From positions 1 to 34,278 of the forward strand of contig NEUS01000034.1 in NCBI GenBank assembly GCA_002288455.1: a stretch of DNA of 34,278 nt, in the 5' to 3' direction. The position numbers were made by a program, and so were the translations under genes. Position 1 is the first letter of the stretch. Every line of letters begins with the position of its first letter. The stretch comes from Opitutia bacterium Tous-C1TDCM. GTDB lineage: Bacteria > Verrucomicrobiota > Verrucomicrobiia > Opitutales > Opitutaceae. The notes under the pieces were generated by a model. It was not told where the DNA came from. It made no database searches and saw nothing but the letters and a program-made list of their open reading frames with translations. Shown here one piece after another: positions 24,497-26,657 of the stretch.

Positions 24497-25468
24497 TCAG
24501 GGCGTGCCGAGGAATTTGCGTTCCTTGAACCAGTAGAGGAGCTGGTCGGCCCAGGGCGGGGCCTCGCGGCCGGGGCGGCCGAAGCCGAGCCCGTGGGGAC
24601 CGTTCTCGTAGATGTGCAGGGAGAACGGAACGCCGGCTTTGCGGAGCGCGGCGGCGAAGAGGAGGGAGTTTTCGACCGGGACGGCTTTGTCCTCGACGGT
24701 GTGCCAGAGGAAGGTGGGCGGCGTCTGCGCGGTGACCTGCAGTTCCGAGGAAAGGGCGCGGACCAGTTCGGCCGAGGGATTATCGCCGATGAGATTGCGG
24801 CGGGAGCCGGAGTGGGCGAATTCGAAAAACGAGATTACCGGGTAGCAGAGAATGGCGAGGTCGGGGCGGGAGGATTCCTTGTCGATCGGATCGCCGGGGA
24901 TGAGCGTGGGGCCGTACGGCTTCACCGGGTCGAAGTGGGTGATGAGCGTGGAAGCGAGGTGGCCGCCGGCGGAGGAGCCGATGACGCCGATGCGGGCGGG
25001 GTCGAGGCCGTCGCGCTTGGCGAAGGCGCGGACGAGGCGGAGGGCGCGGGCGGCGTCGTTGAGCATCACGGGGTGTTTGTAGCCGCTGGAGCCGAGGCGG
25101 TACTTGAGCACGTAGCAGGTGATGCCGTGGGCGGTGAAGAAATCGGCGTAGCCCTTGCCCTCGTGTTCGGCGAGGCCGCCGTAGCCGCCGCCGGGGAGAA
25201 TGAGCATGGTCGCGCCGTTTTTCTTGGCGGGATCGGCGGGGTAGGGCGTGAGCGTCGGGATATCGAGGACGCGGTCGCCCTTGGCGGCGGGGGTGTCGGC
25301 TTCCCAGAGGCGGATCGGGCCGGGGATGCTTTGGTAACTGGGGGCGGCCGGGGCTTTGGCGGCGGGGGCTTTCGCGCCCGGAGCGGCAGGAGTCTGGCCG
25401 AAGGCGGCGGAGACGAGGAGGAGGCCGGCGGCCGCGGCGGCCGGGAGACGGGTGGGGCGGAGAGGCAT
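24497..25468 (-). CDS. secreted alpha/beta hydrolase (acetyl-esterase-like)
   Basis: A 323-residue protein with a signal peptide (cleavage near AAFG-Q) and a low-complexity Ala/Pro/Lys linker (~27-45). The alpha/beta-hydrolase domain then carries the oxyanion motif LPGGGYGG (~91-98), nucleophile S166 in GSSAGGH, an Asp in HTVEDKAVP and the catalytic His in GPHGLG. This pattern matches BD-FAE/AXE-type acetyl xylan or carbohydrate esterases, which act on acetylated sugars outside the cytosol. It is the first gene of the minus-strand run leading into plsC. A terminator lies 82 bp before its start, so it begins a new transcription unit. Longer frames upstream are not used. Confidence 0.9.
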   Translation of the reverse strand: MPLRPTRLPAAAAAGLLLVSAAFGQTPAAPGAKAPAAKAPAAPSYQSIPGPIRLWEADTPAAKGDRVLDIPTLTPYPADPAKKNGATMLILPGGGYGGLAEHEGKGYADFFTAHGITCYVLKYRLGSSGYKHPVMLNDAARALRLVRAFAKRDGLDPARIGVIGSSAGGHLASTLITHFDPVKPYGPTLIPGDPIDKESSRPDLAILCYPVISFFEFAHSGSRRNLIGDNPSAELVRALSSELQVTAQTPPTFLWHTVEDKAVPVENSLLFAAALRKAGVPFSLHIYENGPHGLGFGRPGREAPPWADQLLYWFKERKFLGTP

Positions 25469-25550
25469 AGGGGGTGAGGATCCGAGTGCAGGCGGAATCG
25501 GCGGCGGCGACAAGTCCGGGTTGCAGGCGGCGCGACTCGGCGGAAGCGGA

Positions 25551-25589
25551 AAACAAAAAGGCCCCGGGCGTCTTGCGACGTCCGGGGCC
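25551..25589 (-). terminator. strong intrinsic terminator ending the candidate structured RNA
   Basis: On the minus strand GGCCCCGG-A-CGTC, a GCAA tetraloop, and GACG-C-CCGGGGCC form a 12-bp stem with one mismatch, followed by TTTTTGTTT. It lies upstream of the esterase gene start and 1.07 kb past the nearest upstream stop codon on that strand. It therefore must end a transcript that covers the gene-free stretch 25590-26657. Confidence 0.93.
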
Positions 25590-26400
25590 AATTGTGGGGG
25601 TGGGCGCTCGTCACGCGCTCTTTCCCGGTGGCACACGCTTGGACGCGCTCGCTTTCGCGGGCGGTGTGCTTCCCGACGCCACTCTCCGCGGCAGGCGGAT
25701 GTTTCGGTCTCATGGCGGGACCGTCCCGGCCGTTGCCGGTCGGGATTTATCGAGTGAGGCCTCTGCGCCCGGTTCGGTCGCTCCCTGCCGGGAGCGGCGC
25801 GCCGGACGTGGTGTTGACACGCCTGCAACGGATGTCGTCGCGCGTCGGCACCTTTGCCACGGGGACGGCGCCGGCTTTTGGCCGGCCGTTGGCCCCGCGT
25901 TACGGGTCTGGCCTCTTACCTCTCAGGCTGCGTTCGCGTTGGCAGTAGGGTGACCCCGTTTTGCGGGACCGCCCCAGTGAGGAGGTTTGCGGGCTTTGCC
26001 TAGGTCCGCTCTCTCCCCGCCTTCCCGTCTCCCTTGCGCGCCCGGGTCGATGGCGAGCCGGGCCTTTTGGCGGGGTCGTCCCGCCGGGAAACGCGATGGC
26101 GTTCTGGTCTGCGCAGTAGCAGCCGTGTACCTCTGGGGTAACTGCGTCGGCTTGAAGGTCGAAACGTCCCGCAAGCCTGACTCCGCTCGGCGCGGTTTCT
26201 GATCGCGCCTGGCGGCACAGTTCCTGATTCGTGGATGGACTGACCGGACACGACTCCGGCCAGAGGAACTGGTGATAAATGCCTCGCGCCGGCTTGCGCC
26301 GGCCTGAGGGGGCGGCGGCACCAGTTGCCACCGTCCTTTCCCCGGTCACCCGGGATTATCCCAGTCGGGCGATCAGCGTTCATTTCAGACCGCTGCGCGT
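25551..26400 (-). ncRNA. candidate large structured non-coding RNA of unknown class
   Basis: This gene-free stretch has strong secondary structure and ends at an intrinsic terminator. Seen directly (plus-strand positions): perfect hairpins at 26341-26354 (GUGA loop on the minus strand) and 26288-26303 (GCAA loop), 26189-26209 (6 bp), 25780-25795 (6 bp, GGCA loop) and 25631-25669 (GCACAC/GTGTGC). A long-range 8-bp stem pairs 26319-26326 with 26267-26274. An H-type pseudoknot pairs 26112-26117 with 26141-26146, and 26121-26125 with 26148-26152. Frames on both strands are open only as expected for high GC and match no family I know. The minus orientation rests on the terminator. The 5' end is not defined. 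I found no RNase P, tmRNA, SRP or intron signatures. Confidence 0.6.
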
Positions 26401-26490
26401 TCGACTGTGCTATCAAGGAACGGGGTCAACGGTGGGCGCCGCGGCGCAAAACTGAAGGCTTTCTTCCGCGCAACTTCTTCACCGCCCAGA

Positions 26491-26536
26491 ACGGTGAACA
26501 ACGTGTGAGTTACGTTGTTCACCGGTTGTTCACCGG
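26491..26536. repeat. 13-bp perfect dyad plus direct repeat (TTGTTCACCGG), operator-like
   Basis: cggtgaacaacgt (26492-26504) and acgttgttcaccg (26512-26524) form a perfect 13-bp inverted repeat with a 7-nt centre. The right half continues as two exact tandem copies of TTGTTCACCGG (26515-26525 and 26526-26536), so the motif is present three times with an 11-bp direct period. There is no T-run, so it is not a terminator. It lies ~90 bp upstream of the candidate RNA, and ~120 bp past the glycosyltransferase stop. The rest of 26400-26657 shows nothing else recognisable. Confidence 0.7.
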
Positions 26537-26657
26537 GCCGGCGGAATCAGTCCGGCAGCAAGCCGGCGCGCCGGGCGGCAGGGCGCGCAACTGGCGCGCG
26601 ACCAGCCCGCGATTTCCGCCGCCAGCCGGGTTCTGACCTCGCCGGACCGCGGCGCCT

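Follow-up and report, generated by a model that had tools for sequence, protein, structure and literature searches.

The intergenic minus-strand locus considered here is, with near certainty, the gene of the MISL RNA (Rfam RF03079) in an Opitutaceae-related bacterium, Opitutia bacterium Tous-C1TDCM. In our opinion, its product is best regarded as an autonomous, trans-acting structured RNA made from its own growth-linked transcription unit, and a probability of about 0.7 may be given to this reading. The window, i.e. the whole stretch of DNA that was analysed, comprises 34,278 nucleotides of contig NEUS01000034.1; positions refer to it unless they are called RNA positions, RNA position 1 being window position 26361.

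Identification of the locus

A cmscan search of the whole window gave a single Rfam match, the MISL RNA, at 25603–26361 on the minus strand. It covers model positions 1–751, that is, 751 of 751, with a score of 481.4 bits versus a gathering score of 274.6 and an E-value of 3.7e-145. A permissive Rfam search (E up to 1) over 25400–26560 returned nothing besides MISL, and one copy was found when the whole source genome was searched. The first-pass annotation of this DNA had described a structured minus-strand RNA gene with its own terminator, of a new or very divergent class and distinct from RNase P RNA, tmRNA, SRP RNA and introns. The gene itself has been borne out by the MISL match, by covariation and by the terminator. 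Its separation from the RNAs listed also holds, since only MISL matched at E up to 1, and models of SRP RNA and of group I or II introns gave no match at this level over 25400–26560. The claim of novelty fails because the recommended Rfam/Infernal search, once run, led to a known family, and this at full length and far above the gathering score. No new RNA class is added by this locus, an ordinary orthologue within a family already catalogued.

MISL is presumably among the 253 families of the Weinberg database that were taken into Rfam 14. The families added to that release from this database were found through the analysis of intergenic regions (PMC7779021). In our literature search, outside which the original description lies, MISL appeared solely as a target of in-vitro chemical mapping (PMC10925082); no function for it was found there, and it is catalogued as a candidate noncoding RNA.

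Gene boundaries and flanking signals

The gene occupies a gap of about 1.19 kb, with an alpha/beta-hydrolase gene on one side (which ends near 25469) and a glycosyltransferase gene on the other (from 26658), both on the minus strand. A gap without a recognisable gene had indeed been noticed earlier, its length being put at 1.07 kb. The RNA homology spans 759 nt (25603–26361), and the likely transcript, judging by the signals on both sides, would extend from about 26421 to about 25550 on the minus strand. The terminator, the neighbouring genes and the weak codon periodicity characterise the gene as stand-alone, intergenic and noncoding. Long open reading frames on both strands inside the RNA gene, at 25900–26349, appear to be conserved only through the conservation of the RNA and may carry hypothetical-protein annotation in public genomes.

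At the 3′ side, the intrinsic terminator stem GGCCCCGG-A-CGTC-GCAA-GACG-C-CCGGGGCC (25560–25589, minus strand) consists of 8 bp and 4 bp with one mismatch and is followed by the T run TTTTTGTTTT (25550–25559, minus strand), the likely 3′ end of the transcript. Its folding energy is −28.1 kcal/mol (z = −4.1), a value as good being reached by 0 of 200 shuffles, and a comparable terminator was found 3′ of MISL in 86 of 97 relatives. The terminator seen at first reading is, therefore, real; the mismatch in the stem explains why it escaped a strict pattern scan.

Directly before the 5′ end of the Rfam model, and outside it, there is a hairpin, P0 (26362–26406, minus strand), recognised from the alignment and from individual folds. 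All 5 of its 5 consensus pairs stay paired with changes on both sides in a 38-sequence alignment. P0 sits between the model and the leader GTTCCTTGATAGCAC (26407–26421, minus strand), a boxA-like element whose consensus 15-mer GTTCNTTGANAGAAC is almost invariant and occurs in 96 of 97 loci. With up to one mismatch, the MISL copy is the sole match in the source genome; among seven genomes, the 15-mer occurs once in five and three times in two, always at MISL. The leader was also considered as a hairpin, and this was rejected: changes in its right half are not compensated in the left, which argues that the sequence and not the pairing is conserved.

In the rRNA operons of relatives, the 16S leader contains GCTCTTTGAAA and the spacer GTTCTTTGAAA or GTTCTTTGACA; by position and sequence, these elements are boxA. 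The family leader GTTCCTTGATA matches the local spacer boxA GTTCTTTGAAA at 9 of 11 positions, positions 5 and 10 being different, and nine MISL loci match the local rrn form GYTCTTTGANA exactly. In gamma-proteobacteria, the boxA consensus is GYTCTTTAANA, according to a survey in which noncoding RNAs were not considered (PMC5725501). The MISL leader resembles the rRNA boxA, a NusB/S10 site, in fitting GYTCNTTGANA and in lying close to where a long untranslated RNA probably begins; it differs in that position 5 is C or A at most loci, the source locus included, and NusB-S10 binding is putative. On these sequence grounds, the chances that the leader is a boxA-like antitermination signal may be put at about even. 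No clear sigma-70 promoter was found in the window. In 51 of 93 loci, a free search gave hexamers ending 6–7 nt ahead of the leader, with scores not above those of shuffles; on both counts, a sigma-70 promoter upstream of the leader is at most putative.

Farther upstream, the 9-mer TTGTTCACC occurs three times, at 26493–26501 on the minus strand and at 26515–26523 and 26526–26534 on the plus strand, the last box being 11 bp from the preceding one. Such 9-mers, recognised by sequence and by their enrichment in the family, resemble DnaA boxes. In an unbiased count of 8-mers 75–400 bp upstream of the model, TTATTCAC was at the top (410-fold over flanking DNA, 83 loci). The relaxed 9-mer TTRTNCACM is 91-fold enriched upstream and present in 91 of 97 loci, the strict form TTATNCACA is 134-fold enriched upstream of MISL, and the TTATNCACA-like 9-mers are clustered, as in a DnaA box array. 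Among ten complete genomes searched for paired-box clusters, these lie at MISL in four (G137, G274, G279 and G297), and some were found elsewhere. Genome G029 has a reversal of GC-skew sign that is remote from dnaA and lies within about 200 kb of MISL (L060, L146–L165).

Secondary structure and pseudoknots

The consensus secondary structure of MISL is upheld by covariation among homologues, whose collection and comparison had been recommended as a check. In a MAFFT alignment of 44 sequences, built purely on sequence with neither structure nor fitting to the covariance model, 136 of 174 Rfam pairs have two-sided (compensatory) changes. The covariation score of the Rfam pairs is 0.389 versus 0.168 for shuffled data and at most 0.122 with slid partners, and 51 of 168 pairs have E < 0.05 over the set under a tree-aware null in the manner of R-scape. 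The 759-nt RNA folds with −376.1 kcal/mol versus −332.6 for shuffles (z = −4.2). Both this z-score and the covariation speak against high GC as the source of the stems, which had been the main caution at first reading. It may be concluded that the RNA is under selection, because its structure covaries strongly.

The perfect hairpins reported earlier, two of them with GNRA loops, are real, and each of the two loops is GNRA in 90 of 96 homologues. An 8-bp long-range stem had been mentioned without coordinates. Taken as RNA positions 90–97/136–143, it belongs to the Rfam structure (helix 6) and covaries; the competing stem 36–42/89–95, a perfect match of AACTGGT with ACCAGTT, shows no covariation and was discarded. 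The most conserved segment in the family consensus, TGAGAGGTAAGAGGCCAGACCCGT, lies at 25902–25925 (minus strand).

Four helices beyond the Rfam model are strongly supported, three of them being clear pseudoknots, all on the minus strand. The H-type pseudoknot predicted earlier turned out to be genuine: in GGCCGGA-GTCGTG-TCCGGTC with CACGA, RNA positions 109–113 pair with 129–133 (26253–26249 with 26233–26229, within 26229–26253) and covary, 98% of cells being paired and 3 of 5 pairs having two-sided changes (helix E = 0). The second, GGCTGC/GCAGCC, joins RNA positions 238–243 and 431–436 (26124–26119 with 25931–25926, within 25926–26124; 97% paired, 5 of 6 pairs two-sided), and the third, CTGCCA/TTGCAG, joins 417–422 and 534–539 (25945–25940 with 25828–25823, within 25823–25945; 93% paired, 6 of 6 two-sided). 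The fourth helix is a loop-to-3′ pairing, CGCCA/TGGCG, of RNA positions 645–649 and 681–685 (25677–25717; 100% paired, 2 of 5 two-sided). Together they comprise 22 pairs, 96.9% paired and 16 with two-sided changes, a count that depends on the tree-aware discovery analysis, since the helices were chosen on overlapping sequences; their covariation score is 0.356, as compared with 0.203 for shuffled data and no more than 0.139 with slid partners. Weaker extra helices were found at RNA positions 387–390/412–415 (25947–25975, minus strand; helix E = 0), at 38–42/254–258 (CTGGT/ACCAG, 26104–26324, minus strand; 96.8% paired, 3 of 5 two-sided, helix E = 0.025) and at 717–720/750–753 (E = 0.075). Because the output of a covariance model displays no pseudoknots, some of these may already figure in the drawings of the original authors of MISL.

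Distribution and genomic neighbours

Orthologues of MISL were found in 94 of 384 genomes of the class and in 52 of 171 genera, nearly always in a single copy, and two genomes outside the class also carry it. Among the matches listed, all named matches to the pattern of the most conserved segment belong to Verrucomicrobiota. Several complete genomes of the source's own family have no MISL, so the RNA is dispensable in some lineages. Two genomes, G203 and G314, each have a second copy (L111:8014-8765 and L112:8036-8776), in which the leader and the terminator are kept, the upstream DnaA-box-like sites are absent and the 3′ end is altered.

The neighbours are conserved within clades only, being the HrpB helicase and GTPase BipA genes in the family of the window and rho in others. 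Outside this family, several MISL genes immediately precede a rho gene of the same strand (L087:1926-3237). A partner protein was sought by synteny, and this approach was abandoned, as clade-specific neighbours gave no fixed partner. Such clade-limited conservation argues against cis-regulation of a neighbouring gene or a fixed partner encoded there, as well as against a fixed downstream target gene.

Possible function and alternative explanations

According to the proposed scheme, RNA polymerase would start just upstream of the boxA-like leader, at about 26421, pass through the 5′ hairpin and the MISL domain of about 760 nt and stop at the dedicated terminator at about 25550, whose sequence is evident and whose use is presumed. 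The leader, with roughly equal odds for and against, would recruit NusB-S10 as rRNA boxA does, which would allow the long untranslated transcript to escape Rho. Coupling of expression to replication or growth by the DnaA-box-like sites upstream of the promoter is a more tentative suggestion and somewhat doubtful. As follows from covariation, the RNA folds into many helices joined by pseudoknots. Its most likely role, although held with less than even confidence, would be a trans-acting one, either as scaffold for an RNA-protein particle or as an RNA-only oligomer. The boldest version, in which MISL would be a growth-coupled RNA machine of Verrucomicrobiota with rRNA-like expression (5′ boxA and Nus-factor antitermination) and DnaA control through the upstream box array, is speculative and, as a whole, rather unlikely; if true, replication and the economy of ribosomes would be tied to a giant orphan RNA.

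Several other explanations deserve consideration. That the locus is a protein-coding gene, or a chance structure caused by GC, has a negligible probability: both strands do carry long open frames, yet the homologues show little periodicity of substitutions by three (0.157/0.149/0.135), and the fold z-score, the strong covariation and the Rfam match refute both variants. A cis-acting leader or riboswitch is very improbable too; in the window, the hydrolase gene lies downstream on the same strand, but an intrinsic terminator closes the RNA in most relatives (86/97), and the downstream genes vary between clades. An equally slight chance may be given to an RNA of the ROOL or GOLLD kind, carried by phages or plasmids. 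This reading is favoured by a single contig, out of 2.9 million viral ones, that contains MISL from model position 144 onward (L331:1-567), whereas 50,697 phage records and 72,556 plasmid records gave no MISL match, and synteny is preserved inside clades. Moreover, the MISL part of that contig is joined to maturation and coat-like genes of a single-stranded RNA phage, in sense orientation relative to them, and is most simply explained as an assembly chimera; the idea of a mobile RNA was abandoned on these grounds. Since single-stranded RNA phages never pass through DNA, the most likely origin of the contig is the sequencing of RNA, which gives a hint that MISL of another organism is transcribed.

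Two further explanations are unlikely but carry more weight. One of them places the importance of the locus in DNA, i.e. in a control site adjoining MISL, such as a DnaA titration or regulatory locus or even a replication origin. The roughly 90-fold enrichment of the 9-mers in 91 of 97 loci, the position of the densest paired boxes found at MISL in several complete genomes and the skew switch within about 200 kb in one genome agree with it. We regard it, nevertheless, as improbable: dnaA is not adjacent to MISL (0.15–2.2 Mb away), of the four genomes in which GC skew was sampled around MISL, three show no switch there and the fourth a drop without a change of sign, the second copies in two genomes have no boxes, and the strong covariation shows that the RNA is under selection. 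For a location at the origin or terminus, skew (one genome sampled along its length, four around MISL) and dnaA positions gave inconsistent indications. The other supposes that MISL acts by catalysis, as a ribozyme or an RNA-processing enzyme, and not as a scaffold. Its large size, strictly conserved single-stranded segments, GNRA loops and several pseudoknots are like those of known large ribozymes, but no ribozyme or intron family matched at E up to 1, and the RNA is single-copy, with no mobile partner gene. We know of no catalytic signature in MISL, and catalysis seems a rather poor bet. The reading of MISL as an autonomous trans-acting structured RNA is preferred to all of these.

Comparison with known systems

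In comparison with the catalogued MISL RNA (RF03079), the gene described here is the same in its full-length match far over the gathering score and is intergenic and stand-alone. It differs in that its transcription unit exceeds the Rfam model by the 5′ hairpin, the boxA-like leader and the terminator, and in that several supported helices are not in the nested Rfam structure. RNase P RNA and tmRNA are likewise large structured RNAs, with housekeeping roles; neither matches at the locus (E up to 1), and both are encoded elsewhere in the genomes of relatives, so MISL is no replacement for them.

OLE, ROOL and GOLLD (PMC12286853) share with MISL the size class, a gene of their own and many helices and pseudoknots. 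They differ in that the locus has no match to their Rfam models at E up to 1 and in that MISL is absent from the phage and plasmid records searched. For ROOL and GOLLD, the cellular role is likewise open (PMC12286853). The comparison made here yields a fuller model of the MISL gene, which now includes pseudoknots and a 5′ domain in the RNA, a boxA-like leader and, upstream, a DnaA-box-like array, together with an indirect hint of transcription. This makes the expression and function of MISL directly testable and could improve the corresponding Rfam model.
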